This document shows positions 6,113 through 62,051 of a stretch of DNA of 64,000 nucleotides, piece after piece. Below the pieces are notes generated by a model that saw nothing but the letters and a program-made list of their open reading frames with translations, was not told the DNA's origin and did no database searches. Source of the stretch: Pseudooceanicola nanhaiensis (GTDB lineage Bacteria; Pseudomonadota; Alphaproteobacteria; Rhodobacterales; Rhodobacteraceae); NCBI RefSeq assembly GCF_020171315.1, contig NZ_JAIUZP010000001.1, positions 682,001-746,000 on the forward strand, read 5' to 3'. Made by a program: the position numbers and the translations under genes. Each line of letters begins with the position of its first letter. The first letter of the stretch is position 1.

Positions 6113-7840
6113 ATGGTCTCGAACGTGTCGCCGCAACCCCACGATCCAACCTCTCAAGGACCCGGTCCGGGGGCCGGGGGCGCTGCCCCTGCTCGCCGCC
6201 TGACGGGCGTGCCCTCGCTCTGGTCGGCCGGGGCGGTGGTCATTGCCGTGATCGTCATCCTGCCGATCCTCTCTGTCCTCTGGATCGCGCTGACGCCGAC
6301 CTCGGCCAACATCTGGCCGCACCTGATCCAGACGACCCTGCCGCGCTATCTCAAGAACACGCTGATCCTGATGGGGGCGGTCGGGCTGCTGACCGCCATG
6401 GTGGGCAGCGGGGCGGCATGGATCGTCACGCGCTACCGCTTCCCGGGTGATCGCTGGCTGGAGTGGCTGCTGCTGCTGCCGCTGGCAATCCCGGCCTATG
6501 TCGGGGCCTATGCGCTGGTGGACCTGCTGGAATACGCAGGCCCCGTGCAGACGTGGCTGCGCGGGCTGATGGGCTGGAAGACGGCGCGGGACTACTGGTT
6601 CCCCGAGATCCGCTCGCTGGGGGCCGCGATCCTCGTGCTCTCTGCTGCCCTCTATCCTTACGTCTACCTGCTGACCCGCGCGGCCTTCCGCGAACAATCG
6701 GGCGGGGGCGAGGAAGTGGCCCGCTCGCTCGGCGCCGGGCCCTTCGCCCGGTTCCGCCGGATCGGCCTGCCGCTGGCCCGTCCCGCGATTGCCGCCGGTG
6801 TCGCCGTGGTGATGATGGAGACGATCAACGATTTCGGCACGGTGGATTACTTCGCGGTGCAGACGCTGACCACCGGCATCTTCTCCACGTGGCTCGACGG
6901 GAACAACGCCAGCGGCGCGGCGCAGATCGCCTGTGTGATCCTCACCATGGTGATCCTGCTGGTGCTGCTGGAAAAGGGCTCGCGCCGGCGCAGCAAGTTC
7001 TACAACCTCGGCAGCCGCCACCGGCCCGTGACCCGCGTCCGCCTCACCGGGGTGGCGGCCTGGGCCGCGACGGCGCTCTGCGCGCTGCCGGTCCTCGCGG
7101 GCTTCGTGCTGCCGGCGGGCGTGATCCTCAGCCATGCGGTCGACCATGCGGGCGCCTGGACCGACCCGGCGCTGCTGAGCGCGCTTCTCAACACCCTGGC
7201 GGTGGGCGGCATCGCGGCGGTGCTGACGGTGCTGGCGGCGGTCTTCCTCGTCTACGGCGTGCGCCTGTCGGGCCACCGCCTGCCGCGCCTGCTGATGCCG
7301 GTGACGACGATCGGCTATGCCGCGCCCGGCGCGGTGCTGGGGGTGGGCATCCTGATCCCGCTGGCGCAGCTGGATCACGGGTTGGCGGATTTCGTCGAGG
7401 GTACGTTGAGCGTGGACATCGGCCTGATCCTCACCGGCTCGGCCTTCGCCCTCGTGCTGGCCTATTGCGTGCGCTTCTTCGCCATCGCGCAGGGGGCCTC
7501 GGATGCCGCCATGGGGCGGGTGTCGCCCTCGCTGCCCATGGCCGCGCGTTCGCTGGGGCGCAGCCACCGCAACGTGCTGGGGGCGGTCTATTTCCCGCTG
7601 ATCCGGGGCACGCTGGCCTCGGCGCTGCTGCTGGTCTTCGTGGACTGCGTGAAGGAACTGCCCGCCACGCTGCTGCTGCGGCCCTTCAACTACGACACGC
7701 TGGCGACCCGGGTGCATGAGCAGGCCAGCCTCGAGAGGCTGGGGCAGGCGGCCCCGGCGGCGATCCTCGTGATTGTCGTGGGGCTGGTGGCCGTGGGCCT
7801 GCTGGCGCGCTCCAGCCGCGAGAACTGGGGCCGGGACTGA
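6113..7840 (+). CDS. Ferric iron ABC transporter permease (FbpB/AfuB type)
   Basis: A 575-residue protein made of two fused permease domains, about 12 helices in all, as in FbpB/SfuB/HitB. Each half has an EAA loop for the ATPase: EVARSLGAGPFARFRRIGLP near residue 208 and MAARSLGRSHRNVLGAVYFP near 470. The C-terminal KELPATLLLRPFNYDTLATRV is a hallmark of ferric iron permeases. No binding protein or ATPase gene is next to it, so partners must be encoded elsewhere. ATG at 6113 chosen; TTG at 6095 would add six residues. Confidence 0.87.
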   Translation: MVSNVSPQPHDPTSQGPGPGAGGAAPARRLTGVPSLWSAGAVVIAVIVILPILSVLWIALTPTSANIWPHLIQTTLPRYLKNTLILMGAVGLLTAMVGSGAAWIVTRYRFPGDRWLEWLLLLPLAIPAYVGAYALVDLLEYAGPVQTWLRGLMGWKTARDYWFPEIRSLGAAILVLSAALYPYVYLLTRAAFREQSGGGEEVARSLGAGPFARFRRIGLPLARPAIAAGVAVVMMETINDFGTVDYFAVQTLTTGIFSTWLDGNNASGAAQIACVILTMVILLVLLEKGSRRRSKFYNLGSRHRPVTRVRLTGVAAWAATALCALPVLAGFVLPAGVILSHAVDHAGAWTDPALLSALLNTLAVGGIAAVLTVLAAVFLVYGVRLSGHRLPRLLMPVTTIGYAAPGAVLGVGILIPLAQLDHGLADFVEGTLSVDIGLILTGSAFALVLAYCVRFFAIAQGASDAAMGRVSPSLPMAARSLGRSHRNVLGAVYFPLIRGTLASALLLVFVDCVKELPATLLLRPFNYDTLATRVHEQASLERLGQAAPAAILVIVVGLVAVGLLARSSRENWGRD

Positions 7841-7888
7841 TCCCTGCGCGGGCCGGGCACGGCGCGCATCCCTCAGCTTGAAACGTCA

Positions 7889-7920
7889 GGAGCCGCCCGG
7901 TGGATGCGCCGGGCGGCTCC
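7889..7920. terminator. Bidirectional hairpin between convergent genes
   Basis: A perfect 12-base-pair stem (7889-7900 with 7909-7920) with an 8-base loop. It lies between the convergent iron permease and hypE genes and has no clear T run on either side. Confidence 0.6.
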
Positions 7921-36271: not shown

Positions 36272-36310
36272 TTGACGGGCGAGTTAATAATTCACAGAAT
36301 AGGAATTATT
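36272..36310 (+). promoter_or_regulatory. Promoter and palindromic operator of the NsrR-like gene
   Basis: AATAATTC (36286-36293) and GAATTATT (36303-36310) form a perfect inverted repeat with a 9-base spacer. It covers a promoter with -35 TTGACG (36272-36277) and -10 CAGAAT (36295-36300), 17 bases apart. The start codon is 20 bases downstream. Self-repression by the Rrf2 protein is the likely reading, by inference. Confidence 0.6.
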
Positions 36311-36330
36311 TGCACGCAGTTGATATCACC

Positions 36331-36840
36331 ATGCATCTCTCGAAGTTCACCGACTACGCCCTGCGCGTCTGCCTCTATCTGGGCGCCCATCCCGAGCGGC
36401 TGGTGCCGATCTCGGAAATGGCGCGTGCGCACGACCTGTCGCAGTCGAATCTCATGAAAGTGGTGCACCAGCTGGTCGAAGGCGGCTTCCTCAGTTCCAC
36501 GCGCGGGCGCTCCGGCGGCATTCGCCTTGCCCGTCCCGCCGAGGAAATCCGGCTGGGCGCCGTGGCGCGCTACATGGAAAGCGACGGGGCGATGGTCGAT
36601 TGCTCCTCCTGTATCCTGCGCGGCTCCTGCGGGCTGGTGCCTGCGCTGCACGAGGCGCGGATGGCCTTCTTCGCGGTGCTGGACAGCCAGACGCTGGACC
36701 GGGCGGTGAAATCTCATCCCCGGATGCTGCCGATCCTGCGCTCGGCCGCCGACAAGCAGGGCAGCGGCGCCTGTGGTGCCGCGCCCGCTACGGCACCGGC
36801 GCGCCCGCGCCGGGTCGAGGACCCCACCCCGGTCAAGTGA
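36331..36840 (+). CDS. Rrf2-family regulator, NsrR-like
   Basis: A 169-residue regulator with an N-terminal winged helix (MHLSKFTDYALRVCLYL ... SQSNLMKVVHQLVEGGFL) and three iron-sulfur cysteines at 91, 94 and 100 followed by GLVPALHEA. Asp8 is present, which is a cluster ligand in NsrR. NsrR proteins hold a [4Fe-4S] cluster that nitric oxide destroys. The spacing C-x2-C-x5-C differs from the usual first interval. It stands between the purine operon and nirB, and NO control of nitrite assimilation is plausible. ATG 36331 chosen over TTG 36310, which lies inside the operator. Confidence 0.8.
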   Translation: MHLSKFTDYALRVCLYLGAHPERLVPISEMARAHDLSQSNLMKVVHQLVEGGFLSSTRGRSGGIRLARPAEEIRLGAVARYMESDGAMVDCSSCILRGSCGLVPALHEARMAFFAVLDSQTLDRAVKSHPRMLPILRSAADKQGSGACGAAPATAPARPRRVEDPTPVK

Positions 36841-37131
36841 GTCGCCCCGGATGCGTCGGACCCCGCCTATGAGTCGGGGCCGACTCACGCGCCGACTCGG
36901 CCCTTTCACGACAGTCTGACAGCCGATGCTGCCTGCGCGGGGCAGGGGCGCGGGGGGGCTGATCGCCCGCGCCATTCCACCAGTGCTGGCCGGACGGGCG
37001 GGGTTTTCCGGCGTTTGATCAAAATTTGACCGCAATTCGTACGCTTTCCGCGGCGGCACCGAAATTTCACGCCGCAACTGCACATGACGCTTGTGCGAAA
37101 ATACATGCTATGTCATTGCATGTATCAATCG
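36841..37131 (+). promoter_or_regulatory. nirB upstream region with two inverted repeats
   Basis: First, an 18-base palindrome TGAGTCGG-GG-CCGACTCA (36870-36887) with an extra half-site CCGACTC at 36892; it may be a hairpin ending the regulator transcript. Second, ATACATGC (37101-37108) and GCATGTAT (37118-37125) with a 9-base spacer, just before the leader hairpins and so close to the likely transcription start. No sigma-54 type -24/-12 element was found. The binding proteins are unknown. Confidence 0.5.
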
Positions 37132-37277
37132 AGGTGGAAACGCTTCCACCTACCAGCCGCAATGGCGCGGCCATTTCCGTCAAATCGCCCGTATCGGGCA
37201 GGCAGCAACGATGCTGCAGCTTCGTACCGACAGACTCGGTTCGTGGGAAAGCTGTGCATCCAAGTCTTTGCTTTTCC
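37132..37277 (+). promoter_or_regulatory. ANTAR-type (NasT-like) antitermination leader of nirB
   Basis: Hairpin P1: AGGTGGA (37132-37138), hexaloop AACGCT, TCCACCT (37145-37151). Hairpin P2: GCAGC (37202-37206), hexaloop AACGAT, GCTGC (37213-37217). Both loops have A at position 1 and G at position 4, the rule for ANTAR targets. Two short hairpins lie between them (37161-37175, 37187-37199). The 3' half of P2 is part of a terminator whose arms are 37210-37222 and 37249-37260, followed by a T-rich tract to 37277. P2 and terminator exclude each other. NasT is the known ANTAR regulator of nitrate/nitrite assimilation. Confidence 0.75.
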
Positions 37278-37341
37278 TGACAGAAATCGCCGCGGCCCGG
37301 ACACCCGGTTCGCTCAGCCCCAAGCAGACCGGAGACTTCAC

Positions 37342-39810
37342 ATGTCCAGGCAACGACTCGTCATCATCGGTAACGGCATGGCCCCCGGCCGGATGCTGGA
37401 ACATCTCTTCGAAGCCAGCGATCAGTTCGACGTCACGATCTTCAACGCGGAATCCCGCGTGAACTACGACCGCATCATGCTCTCCCCGGTGCTGTCGGGC
37501 GAGAAGAGCTTCGATGACATCGTGATCCACGACGACGCCTGGTACGCCTCGCACGGCATCACCCTGCACCGGGGTCAGAAGGTCGTCTCCATCGACCGTG
37601 ACGCGCAGACCGTCACCAGCGAGGGCGGCATCACCGCCGCCTATGACAAGCTGGTCATCGCCACCGGCTCCAACCCCTTCATCATCCCCGTGCCCGGCCA
37701 CAAGCTGTCCGGCGTGGTGGCCTACCGTGACCTCGACGACGTGCAGGCGATGAAACGCGCCGCGGCACTCGGCGGGCGTGCCGTGGTCATCGGCGGCGGC
37801 CTGCTGGGCCTTGAAGCGGCGGCGGGCCTGAAGGCGCAGGGCATGGAGGTGACCGTGCTGCACCTGATGCCCACCCTGATGGAGCGTCAGCTGGACCCGG
37901 CGGCAGGCTACCTGCTGCAGAAGGAACTGGAAGGCCGCGGGATCGAAGTGCGCTGCGGTGCCAACACCAAGCAGATCCTCGGTGACACGCAGGTCGAAGG
38001 CGTTGAGCTGGAAGACGGCACCGTGATCGAGGCCTCGCTGGTGGTCATGGCCGTCGGCATCCGCCCGAACGTGCAACTGGCCCAGGAGGCCGGTCTCGAC
38101 GTGGGCCGTGGCATCGTCACCGGCACCGACATGAAGACCTCGGACGCCAACATCTACTCCGTCGGTGAATGCGCCGAGGTGGACGGCCGGGTCTATGGCC
38201 TTGTCGCGCCGCTCTACACCATGGCCAAGGTGGCCGCCGCCCATCTGGCCGGTGCCACGGACGCCGCCTTCGCCCATGCGGAAACGCCCACCAAGCTGAA
38301 GGTCACCGGCGTGAACCTCTACTCGGTCGGCGAATTCGGCGACGGGCCCGAGCTGGAGGACGTGGTCCTGCGCGATGCCAAGCGCGGCACCTACAAGCGC
38401 GTGATCCTGAAGGACAACAAGGTCGTCGGTGCCGTGCTCTACGGCGATGTGGCCGATGGCATGTGGTACAACGAGCTGCTCAAGTCCGCAGACTGTGTCG
38501 AAGCCATGCGCGAGACGCTGATCTTCGGTCAGGCGCACCAGGGTGGCGGCGCGGCAGCGGACCCGCTGGCGGCGATCTCGAACCTGTCGGACGACGCGGA
38601 AATCTGCGGCTGCAACGGCATCTGCAAGGGCCAGATCGTCAACGCGATCAAGGACAAGGGCCTGACCTCGCTCGCCGAAGTGCGCGCCCACACCAAGGCC
38701 TCCGCCTCCTGCGGGACCTGCACCGGGCTGGTCGAGGGCGTCATGGCCCTGACCCTGGGCGACACCTTCGCCAAGAAGGCCGAGGGCATGTGCGGCTGCA
38801 CCGATCTGGGCCATGGCGACGTGCGCCGCCTGATCGTGGCCAAGGGGCTGAAATCCATCCCCGCCGTGATGCAGGAACTGGAGTGGAAATCCTCGGGCGG
38901 CTGCGCCAAGTGCCGTCCGGCGCTGAACTACTACCTCCTGTCCGACTGGCCGGGCGAATACGTCGACGACCAGCAGTCGCGCTTCATCAACGAGCGCGTG
39001 CACGCGAACATCCAGAAGGACGGCACCTATTCGGTGGTTCCGCGGATGTGGGGCGGCATGACCACCTCGGACGAGCTGCGTGCCATCGCGGACGTGGTGG
39101 ACAAGTTCAACATCCCCGACGTGAAGGTCACGGGCGGTCAGCGGATCGACCTGCTGGGCGTCAAGAAAGAGGACCTGCCCGCCGTCTGGAAGGACCTGAA
39201 CGACGCCGGCATGATCTCGGGCCACGCCTACTCCAAGGGTCTGCGCACGGTGAAGACCTGCGTCGGCTCCACCTGGTGCCGCTTTGGCACGCAGGACAGC
39301 ACCGGCCTCGGCATCAAGCTCGAGAAGTTCATGTGGGGCTCGTGGACGCCCGCCAAGGTGAAGCTGGCGGTCACCGGCTGCCCGCGCAACTGCGCCGAGG
39401 CGACCTGCAAGGACATCGGCGTGATCTGCGTCGATAGCGGCTACCAGATCGTCTACGGCGGTGCCGCCGGCCTGCACATCCAGGGCACGACCGAACTGGG
39501 CACCGTGAAGACCGAGGACGAGGTGATCGAGATCGCCGGCGCCATGACCCAGATGTACCGCGAGCAGGGCTTCTACCTCGAGCGGATTTACAAGTGGGCC
39601 GACCGGGTCGGCTACGACACCGTCAAATCCGTCATCTTCGACGATCTGGAGAGCCGCCGCGCCTACTACGAGCGCTTCGTCTACTCGCAGCAATTCGCAC
39701 AGGTCGACCCCTGGTCCGAGCGTGTCTCGGGCGTCGACAAGCACGAGTTCAACCCGATGGCCGTCTTCGGCCTGCCCAACGACACCACCGTCCAGGAGCC
39801 CGCAGAATGA
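37342..39810 (+). CDS. nirB: Assimilatory NADH-nitrite reductase large subunit
   Basis: An 822-residue cytoplasmic flavoprotein. Residues 1-320 bind FAD and NAD (RLVIIGNGMAPGRMLEHL, VVIGGGLLGLEAAAGLKAQG). A [2Fe-2S] BFD-like domain follows (about 415-470, CGCNGICKGQIV and CGTC), with a second cysteine motif near 480-530. The siroheme/[4Fe-4S] part is at about 600-700 (TCVGSTWCRFG, TGCPRNCAEATCKDIG). It reduces nitrite to ammonium with NADH. ATG at 37342, and the stop overlaps nirD (ATGA). Its siroheme comes from CysG, encoded at 62052. Confidence 0.97.
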   Translation: MSRQRLVIIGNGMAPGRMLEHLFEASDQFDVTIFNAESRVNYDRIMLSPVLSGEKSFDDIVIHDDAWYASHGITLHRGQKVVSIDRDAQTVTSEGGITAAYDKLVIATGSNPFIIPVPGHKLSGVVAYRDLDDVQAMKRAAALGGRAVVIGGGLLGLEAAAGLKAQGMEVTVLHLMPTLMERQLDPAAGYLLQKELEGRGIEVRCGANTKQILGDTQVEGVELEDGTVIEASLVVMAVGIRPNVQLAQEAGLDVGRGIVTGTDMKTSDANIYSVGECAEVDGRVYGLVAPLYTMAKVAAAHLAGATDAAFAHAETPTKLKVTGVNLYSVGEFGDGPELEDVVLRDAKRGTYKRVILKDNKVVGAVLYGDVADGMWYNELLKSADCVEAMRETLIFGQAHQGGGAAADPLAAISNLSDDAEICGCNGICKGQIVNAIKDKGLTSLAEVRAHTKASASCGTCTGLVEGVMALTLGDTFAKKAEGMCGCTDLGHGDVRRLIVAKGLKSIPAVMQELEWKSSGGCAKCRPALNYYLLSDWPGEYVDDQQSRFINERVHANIQKDGTYSVVPRMWGGMTTSDELRAIADVVDKFNIPDVKVTGGQRIDLLGVKKEDLPAVWKDLNDAGMISGHAYSKGLRTVKTCVGSTWCRFGTQDSTGLGIKLEKFMWGSWTPAKVKLAVTGCPRNCAEATCKDIGVICVDSGYQIVYGGAAGLHIQGTTELGTVKTEDEVIEIAGAMTQMYREQGFYLERIYKWADRVGYDTVKSVIFDDLESRRAYYERFVYSQQFAQVDPWSERVSGVDKHEFNPMAVFGLPNDTTVQEPAE

Positions 39811-40151
39811 ACGCCTCTGTCCAGAACACCGATCTCGACTGGCGCCTGATCGGCACCATCGACGACATCCCCGCCCAAGGGGCGCGCTGCGTGAAGAATG
39901 GCGAGACCACGATCGCCGTCTTCCGGACCGCGGACGACCGCATCTTCGCACTTGAAGACAAATGCCCGCATCGCAACGGGCCGCTCAGCCAGGGGATCGT
40001 GCATGACGGTTGCGTCACCTGCCCCCTGCACAACTGGGTCATCTCGCTCGAAACCGGCACCGCGCAGGGTGCGGACGAGGGCCGGACTGCCTCCTTCCCT
40101 GTCCGCCTCAGCGGTCGGGACATCTACCTCAACCTGAAACCTGGCGCCTGA
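39807..40151 (+). CDS. nirD: Nitrite reductase small subunit, Rieske type
   Basis: A 114-residue Rieske-fold protein. Unlike many NirD proteins it keeps both cluster motifs, CPHRNG (near 53) and CPLHNW (near 73), so it can bind a [2Fe-2S] centre. It is the partner of NirB in nitrite reduction. Translation is coupled to nirB by a 4-base overlap. Confidence 0.95.
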   Translation: MNASVQNTDLDWRLIGTIDDIPAQGARCVKNGETTIAVFRTADDRIFALEDKCPHRNGPLSQGIVHDGCVTCPLHNWVISLETGTAQGADEGRTASFPVRLSGRDIYLNLKPGA

Positions 40152-40186: not shown

Positions 40187-41026
40187 ATGGCGTATATCGC
40201 TCCGAAGGAATTCGCGGCCAAGATGGTCGACGCCGGCGAATCCAAGATCTTCATGTCCACCAAGGACACCCTGATCCGCGCTTACATGGCGGGTGCCATC
40301 CTGGCGCTTGCCGCGGCCTTCGCCGTGACCATCGCGGTCAACACCGGCAACTTCCTCGTCGCCTCGCTGCTCTTCCCGGTCGGCTTCTGCATGCTGTACC
40401 TGATGGGCTTCGACCTGCTGACCGGCGTCTTCACCCTGGCCCCGCTGGCCGTCATCGCCAAGCGCCCGGGCTGCACCTGGAAAGGTGTCTTCCGGAACTG
40501 GGGCCTCGTGTTCTGCGGCAACTTCGCAGGCGCCCTGACCACCGCCGTCTTCATGGCGATCATCTTCACCATGGGCTTCAGCGAAGAACCCAACGCCGTC
40601 GGCCAGAAGATCGGCAAGATCGGTGAGGCCCGGACGCTGGGCTACGCCGCTGCGGGCTCGGCCGGCATGCTGACCGTCTTCATCCGCGCCGTGATGTGCA
40701 ACTGGATGGTTTCCACCGGTGTCGTCGCCGCGATGATGTCGAACTCCACCGGCGGCAAGATCATGGCCATGTGGATGCCGATCATCGTCTTCTTCTACCT
40801 CGGCTTCGAGCACTCGATCGTGAACATGTTCCTGTTCCCCTCGGGCATCATGCTGGGCGGTCAGTTCACCTGGGTCGACTACTTCGCCTACAACGAGATC
40901 CCCGTTGTTCTGGGCAACCTCGTCGGCGGCCTGACCTTCGTGGGCGGCATGATCTACGCCACCCACTTCAAGGAATCGCCCAAGCGCAACGCCACCACCG
41001 ACGTGACCGGCCTGCCGGCAGAATAA
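40187..41026 (+). CDS. Formate/nitrite transporter family channel (NirC-like)
   Basis: A 279-residue FNT channel with six helices. Family residues include the first omega-loop region LYLMGFDLLTGVFTLAPLAVIAKRPG (near 85) and the second NWMVSTGVVAAMMSNSTGGKIMAMW (near 175). The central pore His is probably in GFEHSIVNMFLFP. It follows nirD by 35 bases and ends at a strong terminator, so nitrite import for NirBD is the likely role. Cyanate cannot be excluded, as cyanase is encoded downstream. Confidence 0.9.
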   Translation: MAYIAPKEFAAKMVDAGESKIFMSTKDTLIRAYMAGAILALAAAFAVTIAVNTGNFLVASLLFPVGFCMLYLMGFDLLTGVFTLAPLAVIAKRPGCTWKGVFRNWGLVFCGNFAGALTTAVFMAIIFTMGFSEEPNAVGQKIGKIGEARTLGYAAAGSAGMLTVFIRAVMCNWMVSTGVVAAMMSNSTGGKIMAMWMPIIVFFYLGFEHSIVNMFLFPSGIMLGGQFTWVDYFAYNEIPVVLGNLVGGLTFVGGMIYATHFKESPKRNATTDVTGLPAE

Positions 41027-41090: not shown

Positions 41091-42815
41091 ATGCCAAAGG
41101 ATACCGTTGCCCGCCCGTGCCTCACGGTGACGCTCGGCCAGTATTCCGGCGCGGGGCGCAAGCCGGAGAACCAGGATTTTCACGGCGCGCTGATCCCCTC
41201 GGGCAGCCCGCTGGCGCTGAAAGGGATCACCCTGGCCGTAGCCGACGGGATTTCCTCCAGCGCGGTCAGCGGGCAGGCGGCAGAGACCGCCGTAAAGGCC
41301 CTGCTGGACGATTACTACGCCACCCCCGACGCCTGGACGACGCGCACCGCCGCGACCCGCGTCATCGCCGCCACCAACGCCTGGCTGCATGGGCAGAACA
41401 CCTCCGTCGCCGATGTGAACGCAGGCCACGTCTGCACCCTCTCGGCGCTGATCCTGAAGGGGCGCGAGGGCCATGTGCTGCATGTGGGCGACAGCCGCGT
41501 GGCGCGGCTCTCGGGTGCCGGCCTCGAGGCGCTGACCGAGGATCACCGGCTGGTCCTCTCCTCGACCGAGAATTACCTGGCCCGCGCCATGGGCGCCGCC
41601 CGCGAGGTCGAGGTCGACTATCGCCGCGTGCGCCTGAGCGAGGGCGATGTCTTCGTGCTGACCACCGACGGCGTGCATGAGTTCATCACCGCCCGTGACG
41701 TGGTCGCGGCCCTTGCCGCGCCGGACCTCGACACCGCCGCCCGGCGGCTGGCCGATGTGGCGCTGGAACGGGGCAGCGACGACAACCTGACGGTGCAGCT
41801 GCTGCGGGTCGAAAGCCTGCCCGAGGCCGGGGCCGAGCTGTCGCTGGACGCCGCCCGCCTGCCGGTGCCGCCGCTGCCGAAGGCGGGGCAGGTGATCGAC
41901 GGCTTCCGCATCCTGCGCCCGCTGCACCAGACCGCCCGCAGCCACGTCTACCTTGCCGAGGACGGGCAGGGGCAGCGCGTGGCGCTGAAGATCCCCGCCA
42001 GCGAGATGGCGCTGGACACCGATTACCTGCGCCGCTTCGTGCTGGAGGAATGGATCGCCCGCCGCCTCGCCTCGGCCCACGTGCTGCGCGCGGCAGAGGC
42101 GCCGGCAAACCGCAGCGCGCTCTACGTGGTCACCGAGTTCGTCGAGGGCCAGACCCTGCGCGACTGGATGGCCGACCACCCGCAGCCCGATCTGGCCCTG
42201 GTGCGCGACATCGTCACCCAGATCGCCACCGGCCTGCGGGCGTTTCACCGCCGCGAGATGCGGCATCAGGATTTGCGGCCCGAGAACGTGATGATCGACC
42301 GGACGGGAACGGTAAAGATCATCGACCTCGGCTCTGCCTCTGTTGCGGGGGTAGAGGAAGCCGCGCCGGGCCTGTTGGGGGACATGCCCGGCACCTATCA
42401 GTACACCGCGCCGGAATACCTCTCGGGGCAGGGGGCGACGTGGCGGGCGGATCAATACGCCCTCGGCGTCATCGCCTACGAGATGCTGACCGGGCGGTTG
42501 CCCTACGGGGCGCAGGTGGCCCGCGTGCGCAATGCGCGCGATCAGGCCCGCCTCAGTTACACGCCCGCGCGGGATGCCGAAAACGGGCTTCCCGACTGGA
42601 TGGACGTCGCGCTGAAACGCGCGGTGCATCCCGATCCGGCCCGCCGCTACGAGGCGCTTTCCGAATTCGTCGCGGACCTGCGCCGTCCGGGCTCCGGCTA
42701 CCGGGCGGGGCGCCACGTGCCGCTGGCAGAACGCAATCCGGTCCGCTTCTGGCAGGCGGTCTCGGCGGGGCTGGCGCTGCTCTGCGTCGTGCTCATGACC
42801 CAACTGGCGGGCTGA
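41091..42815 (+). CDS. PP2C phosphatase-Ser/Thr kinase fusion with C-terminal membrane anchor
   Basis: A 574-residue bifunctional protein. Residues 10-245 are a PP2C phosphatase (ENQDFHG, VADGISSS, HVGDSR, LTTDGVHE, GSDDNLTV). Residues 270-540 are a Hanks-type kinase with the ATP lysine in VALKIP, catalytic loop RHQDLRPENV and DLG in place of DFG. One helix at about 553-572 anchors it, with the enzymes in the cytoplasm. Similar fusions lie beside nirB in other proteobacteria, for instance in Pseudomonas, but their target is unknown. Here it sits between the FNT channel and cyanase genes. Confidence 0.88.
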   Translation: MPKDTVARPCLTVTLGQYSGAGRKPENQDFHGALIPSGSPLALKGITLAVADGISSSAVSGQAAETAVKALLDDYYATPDAWTTRTAATRVIAATNAWLHGQNTSVADVNAGHVCTLSALILKGREGHVLHVGDSRVARLSGAGLEALTEDHRLVLSSTENYLARAMGAAREVEVDYRRVRLSEGDVFVLTTDGVHEFITARDVVAALAAPDLDTAARRLADVALERGSDDNLTVQLLRVESLPEAGAELSLDAARLPVPPLPKAGQVIDGFRILRPLHQTARSHVYLAEDGQGQRVALKIPASEMALDTDYLRRFVLEEWIARRLASAHVLRAAEAPANRSALYVVTEFVEGQTLRDWMADHPQPDLALVRDIVTQIATGLRAFHRREMRHQDLRPENVMIDRTGTVKIIDLGSASVAGVEEAAPGLLGDMPGTYQYTAPEYLSGQGATWRADQYALGVIAYEMLTGRLPYGAQVARVRNARDQARLSYTPARDAENGLPDWMDVALKRAVHPDPARRYEALSEFVADLRRPGSGYRAGRHVPLAERNPVRFWQAVSAGLALLCVVLMTQLAG

Positions 42816-42845: not shown

Positions 42846-43313
42846 ATGAAAGACATGGCACAAGCCGAAACCCTGACCCGCGAGGACGTCACCGCGCTGA
42901 TCCTCGCCTCCAAGAAGGCGGCGCTGCAGACCTGGGAAGGCATCGCCGAGGCGATCGGCATGTCCCCGGTCTGGACCCACTCGGCCTGCATGGGGATGAA
43001 CGCCTTCCCGCGCGACAAGGCCGATGCGCTGGTTGCGCTGTTGGACCTGCCGGAGGCGGCCGCCGACCTGCTGGTGGAAAGCCCCACCAAGATCTGGGAA
43101 CAGACTGTTCCGACCGATCCCTGCATCTATCGCCTCTACGAGATCGTCGGCGTCTACGGCCCCACGATCAAGGCGCTGATCCACGAGGGCTTCGGCGACG
43201 GCATCATGTCGGCCATCGACTTCGACATGCAGGTCACCCGCGTGCCGCACGAAAAGGGCGACCGGGTTAAGATCGAGATGTCGGGCAAATACCTGAGCTA
43301 CAACGCCTGGTAA
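42846..43313 (+). CDS. cynS: Cyanate hydratase (cyanase)
   Basis: A 155-residue cyanase. The N-terminal helical domain is followed by the catalytic domain with the Arg-Glu-Ser triad in RLYEIVGVYG (Arg and Glu near 98-101) and IMSAIDF (Ser near 124). It converts cyanate and bicarbonate to ammonia and CO2. Good ribosome site GGAGGAC before ATG 42846. It is coded 30 bases after the kinase gene and ends before a bidirectional hairpin. Ammonia output fits the nitrite reductase neighbours. Confidence 0.96.
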   Translation: MKDMAQAETLTREDVTALILASKKAALQTWEGIAEAIGMSPVWTHSACMGMNAFPRDKADALVALLDLPEAAADLLVESPTKIWEQTVPTDPCIYRLYEIVGVYGPTIKALIHEGFGDGIMSAIDFDMQVTRVPHEKGDRVKIEMSGKYLSYNAW

Positions 43314-61658: not shown

Positions 61659-62051
61659 GGCCGGGTCCTTTCGGAGGCAAAGAGCAAACGGGGGAGGCGC
61701 CCCCATGCGCGCTTGCCTGATCGGGACCGGGCTGGCTGAGGCCCTCCTACAATTTCCGACTGATTTGGTCAATCATTGCGCCGCGCCAGAGGCGGACCGC
61801 TGCCAAGAGCCTCTCTGCCCGCCTTCGGGCCGGGTGGTTGCTGAAAAACCATGCATCCATGACGCATCTATCGGCTTCGGCCACCGTTGAGGGTCAATTC
61901 CCTTGCGCGACTCGCCTCATTGGGGGCAGATGGACCCAGCGGCAACGGCGCCGCCGATTTCCCTACATGACGGGACCTATGAGCAAAGCTGCTCGATCCT
62001 CCGCTTCTCGCGGTGATCGGCGGCTTTTTGGCATTTGAACGGTGGTGCGAT
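61659..62051. other. Divergent intergenic region between siderophore reductase and cysG
   Basis: About 390 bases. An iron box lies at 61761-61775 for the minus-strand gene. The rest, up to the cysG start, shows no clear operator or gene; a T-rich spot at 62020-62030 (GCGGCTTTTTGGC) lies shortly before cysG. Confidence 0.5.
61761..61775 (-). promoter_or_regulatory. Iron-Rhodo-box (TGA-N9-TCA) upstream of the siderophore reductase gene
   Basis: TGA-TTTGGTCAA-TCA, about 100 bases before the reductase start. This is a second copy of the same motif as before the receptor gene, which supports joint iron control. Confidence 0.6.

Follow-up and report, generated by a model that had tools for sequence, protein, structure and literature searches.

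The leader of nirB in Pseudooceanicola nanhaiensis is quite likely an antitermination switch that responds to nitrate or nitrite and is operated by NasT through two hairpins, P1 and P2. As judged from conservation and covariation of the leader, the conserved ANTAR pair is 37156-37171 and 37202-37217, 30 nt apart, and the hairpin upstream of them, P0, is not its member. The window, which is the whole stretch of 64,000 nucleotides that was analysed, carries the following features at this place.

36310-36840: gene for an Rrf2-family protein (Pfam).
37101-37125, + strand: inverted repeat ATACATGC-N9-GCATGTAT, immediately 5' of the leader hairpins (from the sequence; identical in Maritimibacter alkaliphilus, L002).
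37132-37151, + strand: P0, the P1 of an earlier sequence-only reading; arms AGGTGGA and TCCACCT, loop AACGCT (hairpin scan; the stem is present in most relatives, the loop is not).
37156-37171, + strand: P1, conserved ANTAR hairpin; arms GCCGC and GCGGC, loop AATGGC at 37161-37166, C-G closing pair (scan, alignments, covariance model).
37172-37201, + strand: P1-P2 linker of 30 nt, composed of 15 unpaired nt, the spacer hairpin and 2 nt.
37187-37199, + strand: spacer hairpin in the linker, GCCC-GTATC-GGGC (covariation, shuffles, RNAalifold, pairing probability).
37202-37217, + strand: P2, conserved ANTAR hairpin; arms GCAGC and GCTGC, loop AACGAT; it overlaps the 5' arm of the terminator (scan, covariation, folding).
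37210-37260, + strand: T1, terminator-like hairpin exclusive with P2, with an imperfect T-rich tail up to 37277 (duplex shuffles, folding).
37245-37277, + strand: T2, hairpin GGGAAAGC...GCTTTTCC; it can form together with P2 but not with T1 (shuffles, folding).
37167-37293, + strand: LR, predicted long-range helix of 37167-37182 with 37278-37293, which reuses the P1 3' arm (folding model, pairing energy).
37342-39810, + strand: nirB, nitrite reductase large subunit (Pfam).
39846-40151, + strand: nirD, Rieske-type small subunit (Pfam).
40187-41026, + strand: FNT formate/nitrite transporter, nirC-like (Pfam).
41091-42815, + strand: PP2C phosphatase/protein kinase fusion (Pfam).
42846-43313, + strand: cynS, cyanate lyase (Pfam).

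Three Watson-Crick hairpins (at least 5 bp) with A1 and G4 in a hexaloop were found in the nirB leader, 37085-37341; the + strand of the entire window has seven A1/G4 hexaloop hairpins. Dinucleotide shuffles of the leader (n = 20,000) gave a mean of 0.018 such hairpins, with at least two in one shuffle and at least three in none. A covariance model, R1, composed of P1, the linker hairpin and P2, was built on six leaders and run on 394 genomes of the family. Matches were obtained in 47/394 genomes at E 0.01 and in 14/394 at ≥35 bits; below 35 bits, inspection by eye covered seven matches (L115-L121) and L202. The 14 leaders at ≥35 bits were joined with those of Maritimibacter alkaliphilus and Salipiger mangrovisoli (L003) into a set of 16. 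In all 16, six of which had served to build the model that found them, both hexaloops carry A1 and G4, and P1 is also closed by C-G. The alignment fitted to R1 has 17 rows, one of which is a doubtful coding match at window positions 61937-61997. In this alignment 99.5% of the cells pair, 7 of 13 pairs show two-sided changes (3/5 in P1, 2/3 in the spacer hairpin and 2/5 in P2), and none of 500 shuffles equalled it. The C:G pair closing each hexaloop is invariant in these 17 rows and in the 17 rows of the alignment of nas leaders described below. The sequence-only reading had proposed an ANTAR/NasT-type leader 5' of nirB, and this was supported: related nirB leaders conserve the pair and the genome has NasT-like and NasS-like genes. 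The second R1 match in the window, 61937-61997, scored 29.5 bits, overlaps long ORFs and is probably due to chance.

The reading had also taken P0 as the ANTAR P1 and paired it with P2 over 50 nt, with the two middle hairpins as filler. Its two hairpins, P0 with the loop AACGCT and P2 with the loop AACGAT, are indeed present with A1 and G4, and a hairpin stands at the P0 place in most relatives. For the upstream 45 nt, this hairpin is kept overall in the 16 leaders (Fisher p = 4e-6; p ≤ 0.05 singly in 6/16); in this and all other Fisher values, related leaders are counted as independent, so that significance is overstated. The 50-nt spacing fails because one of the supposed fillers, 37156-37171, also carries an A1/G4 hexaloop and is better conserved than P0: A1, G4 and the closing C-G are present in 16/16. 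At P0, a stem of at least 4 capped by an A1/G4 hexaloop was found only in the window, M. alkaliphilus and S. mangrovisoli (3/19 leaders) and in none of the other 16. When the window was aligned with these two species and Albibacillus kandeliae (L004), P1 and P2 were almost constant and the P0 sequence varied; of the two loops on which the reading relied, that of P2 is kept in related nirB leaders and that of P0 is not. The closing pair of P0 is A-U in the window and in M. alkaliphilus, G-C in S. mangrovisoli and never C-G, whereas C:G was preferred as the loop-closing pair in NasR SELEX (PMC7496416). Inside the loops of P0 and P2, the folding model closes an A-U pair with probabilities of 0.74 and 0.75, giving tetraloops. 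P0 as the partner of P2 is highly improbable on this evidence. A three-site array, in which P0, P1 and P2 would all be NasT sites in the genus and P0 would be the accessory or decaying member, we hold to be improbable. P0 in the window obeys the loop rule, 4 nt separate its end from P1, and several other P0 loops resemble, by eye, hexaloops with G4 and without A1; however, the rarity of A1/G4 at P0 and its closing pair argue against a third site too.

The linker between P1 and P2 measures 26-39 nt in the 16 leaders, and in the window about 17 nt between the two would be unpaired if the spacer hairpin forms. The pairing probability of this hairpin in the window was 0.99-1.00. Compared with shuffles, linker folding gave a Fisher p of 1e-6 over the 16 leaders and p 0.05 singly in 4/16; the value for the window was 0.056. 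In G042 and G356, two genomes with NirB of the window type, the linkers are 21 and 13 nt long and no hairpin was predicted. A script applied to 23 nasS-nrtA leaders from the family detected a hairpin pair in 19/23 and no pair in G230, G188, G004 and G023; P1 was weak or doubtful in 2/23 (G000 and G231). A linker hairpin in the 19 nas leaders was indicated by a Fisher p of 3e-4 and was significant singly in 4/19. With the six named leaders left out and some P1 reset by hand, 17 nas leaders picked via P1 and P2 were aligned with MAFFT and folded with RNAalifold. P1, the spacer hairpin and P2 were predicted, with compensation in 7/12 pairs; since P1 and P2 served to pick the segments, the spacer hairpin alone emerged unguided here. 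The P1 loop of these leaders has G4 in 17/17 and A1 in 15/17. Because it is predicted in nas leaders too, the spacer hairpin appears to be widespread in the NasT-type leaders of the family and not nirB-specific.

With 30 nt, the linker lies outside the 2-25 nt of the ANTAR dual-hairpin curation. That range was used for curating actinobacterial ANTAR RNAs (PMC8164766) and is no known NasT requirement. The E. faecalis eut linkers are 5-12 nt and the actinobacterial set has 2-25 nt, whereas the 16 leaders here have 26-39 nt and an inserted hairpin; a 14-nt linker harmed the EutV response (PMC3369931). A description of a spacer hairpin in an ANTAR leader was not found in a literature search in which subscription papers mostly lay outside the material covered. 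We propose as a rule that ANTAR linkers may go beyond the accepted length if a hairpin absorbs the excess.

In the switch that we favour, NasS would hold NasT when nitrate and nitrite are absent, and the RNA would fold into T1 (37210-37260) and stop ahead of nirB. When nitrate or nitrite is present, free NasT would grip the loops of P1 (37156-37171) and P2 (37202-37217), with the spacer hairpin leaving about 17 unpaired nt between them. P2 would stay closed, T1 could not form, and nirBD-FNT-kinase-cynS would be transcribed as one operon. Growing transcripts were folded by partition function, in an equilibrium model without NasT, polymerase or kinetics. P2 is formed at about 1.0 with the 3' end up to 37252; T1 and P2 are at 0.62 and 0.38 with the end at 37262, and at 0.90 and 0.09 with the end at 37277. 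From 37283 on, T2 and P2 are back at 0.84 each without any protein. T1 uses the 3' half of P2 and the two folds are mutually exclusive in window folding; in the model, this recovers the exclusion that the earlier reading described. That reading had called T1 an intrinsic terminator with a T-rich tract to 37277. The hairpin itself is there; the tract is interrupted (AAGTCTTTGCTTTTCC), which makes a poor U-tract, and a simple scan found no terminator in 36840-37350.

In the window and in M. alkaliphilus, T1 duplex pairing was stronger than in shuffles (p 0.008 for the window), whereas p was >0.05 in 14/16 leaders and the Fisher value was 0.066. Because T1 is so poorly conserved, NasT binding might instead control Rho-dependent termination, RNA stability or translation of nirB. 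The interrupted U-tract agrees with such control, as does T2, which is conserved (over 18 leaders the Fisher p is 7e-4, while the window by itself gives p 0.32) and compatible with P2. By contrast, at least 5 consecutive T occur in 17/19 nas leaders, in a set whose selection favoured T-runs. On the other side, T1 is the favoured fold while the 3' end lies at 37262-37277, and the layout at P2 resembles that of the nas leaders. We consider control by a route other than an intrinsic terminator possible and on the unlikely side, and keep antitermination at T1 as the preferred reading.

Antitermination at T1 might be followed by a further step. In the model, P1 is at 0.98 with the 3' end at 37290; at 37300 it is at 0.00, LR is at 0.99 and P2 at 0.85, so that LR displaces P1 only after the transcript end has reached a point between 37290 and 37300. 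The pairing energy of LR gave p<0.05 in 7/16 leaders and in 2/7 further ones, mostly by sequence invariance. A first alignment of LR (7 leaders, L107 included) had 95.9% of cells paired and no two-sided change; a second (9 leaders, without L107) had 93.5% paired and one two-sided change, which was matched by 49/500 shuffles. L216, misaligned at its 3' end, was kept as is in these counts. It is conceivable, and rather doubtful, that after read-through of T1 the helix takes the P1 3' arm, unfolds P1 and frees NasT, so that NasT would be used once per RNA, with the spacer hairpin and T2 shaping an ordered refolding. If true, this would be a way for the leader to recycle its antiterminator.

The search of the genome for nasTS that the earlier reading had called for gave a single ANTAR protein, NasT-like and 391 kb (0.39 Mb) from the leader, with a NasS-like NMT1_2 protein encoded behind it; NasT and NasS are named here from the domains (ANTAR, NMT1_2) and the gene order. 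An ANTAR protein is present in 14/14 strong-match genomes, 6/8 weak-match genomes and 5/8 no-match genomes. With ANTAR proteins so common across the family, this co-occurrence is weak evidence. Directly after nasS lies the own nas cluster, apparently with nrtABC-like genes, a short NirB-like FAD protein and nitrate reductase (names by eye). The NirB-like protein (L170:12348-13763, 471 aa) apparently corresponds to the FAD part only and adjoins nitrate reductase, as seen by eye. The nas leader of this genome (L170, after nasS, about 7580-7890) has a weak P1 and the P2 loop ATTGTC; neither a significant linker hairpin (p 0.74) nor a T-run was found in it. The siting of nirBD outside the nas cluster would explain why it needs a NasT leader of its own.

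By gene order, the leader heads predicted (nirBD-)FNT-PP2C/kinase-(cynS) operons. All 14 leaders at ≥35 bits have nirB or FNT within about 0.5 kb on their 3' side (13 by tblastn, the window by its sequence), and tblastn placed NirB or FNT 3' of 22/22 leaders tested. Of 13 leaders with FNT and without NirB, 11 have the PP2C/kinase gene next, and six of those 11 have cynS too. FNT stands alone in the stretch at L202 and L214, in the latter perhaps because the stretch ends shortly after. In genome G039 (L202 and L203), nirBD (with the kinase) and FNT are separate, with about 13 kb between the leaders, and each has a P1/P2 leader; that of FNT is weaker (30.7 bits). A NirB match at E 1e-200 was found in 159/394 family genomes, and nine of them have at least 75% identity, which we call the window type. 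The P1/P2 pair is 5' of nirB in 9/9 of these, seven at ≥35 bits, G042 at 34.6 and G356, which has a mismatch in the P1 stem, at 25.4. A DNA match to the leader was found in 5/22 genomes of the same genus, the own genome counted, and in none of the others at E 1e-6; a plasmid search found nothing. In a class-level sample of 367 genomes, R1 gave five matches at E 0.001: the own leader, one weak match in the family and three outside it. Two of these three (G499 and G434) are ahead of FNT, and one reads by eye as coding. Matches of the hairpin scan at 260-300 nt upstream of rhizobial nirB were dropped since they apparently lie within the upstream coding region (8 loci, by eye). By eye, the nirB leader of Sinorhizobium meliloti (L032, upstream of 3001) apparently has the order P1, hairpin, P2, together with seven consecutive T.

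Control of nirBD by NasT is already known from Pseudomonas, where NasT-dependent antitermination acts on the nirBD leader nalA (review PMC12830290, citing Romeo 2012 and Nie 2024). There, like here, the NasT switch is directly 5' of nirBD; judging by the cited titles, the two operons differ in gene content. In Paracoccus denitrificans, activated NasS-NasT shifts the nasA leader RNA (PMC3795266), and two hairpins are placed upstream of nasA, HI at 137 bp and HII at 91 bp (PMC5424462). The two are 46 apart, which equals the P1-P2 start distance here, and a NasT-controlled operon follows. We infer by analogy that HI and HII correspond to P1 and P2. Mutation of HI severely reduced expression on nitrate, and mutation of HII left it relatively unaffected (PMC5424462), which would be at odds with a strict need for P2 if HII is P2. 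The P. denitrificans leader, compared here by its description, differs in that it heads nasABGHC beside nasTS and in that a spacer hairpin is not mentioned in the available text. ANTAR dual-hairpin RNAs (eutP, nasF, amiE) have, as here, two stems, A1/G4 hexaloops, C:G closing pairs and a P2 overlapping the terminator (PMC3369931, PMC7496416). In Bradyrhizobium diazoefficiens, hairpins for NasT interaction were proposed in leaders beyond nas, as here, and for different genes (nosR, nirA, coxS; PMC6759348).

What is new here is the spacer hairpin, the association of the leader with these operons, and the possibility that a long-range helix unfolds P1 once read-through has occurred. The likely NasT site is reassigned to other hairpins, P1 and P2. 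The likely NasT regulon of Rhodobacteraceae would gain an operon whose genes serve nitrite reduction and nitrite transport and encode a kinase/phosphatase and cyanate lyase.

Rfam gave nothing at gathering scores over the whole window and, below gathering, one chance-level thermometer match (E 2.9) on the opposite strand; a simple scan for promoters and terminators also gave nothing. The inverted repeat at 37101-37125, which lies between the leader and the gene of the Rrf2 family, is a possible operator or promoter element. In S. mangrovisoli, another inverted repeat is apparently present near the same position, as seen by eye.
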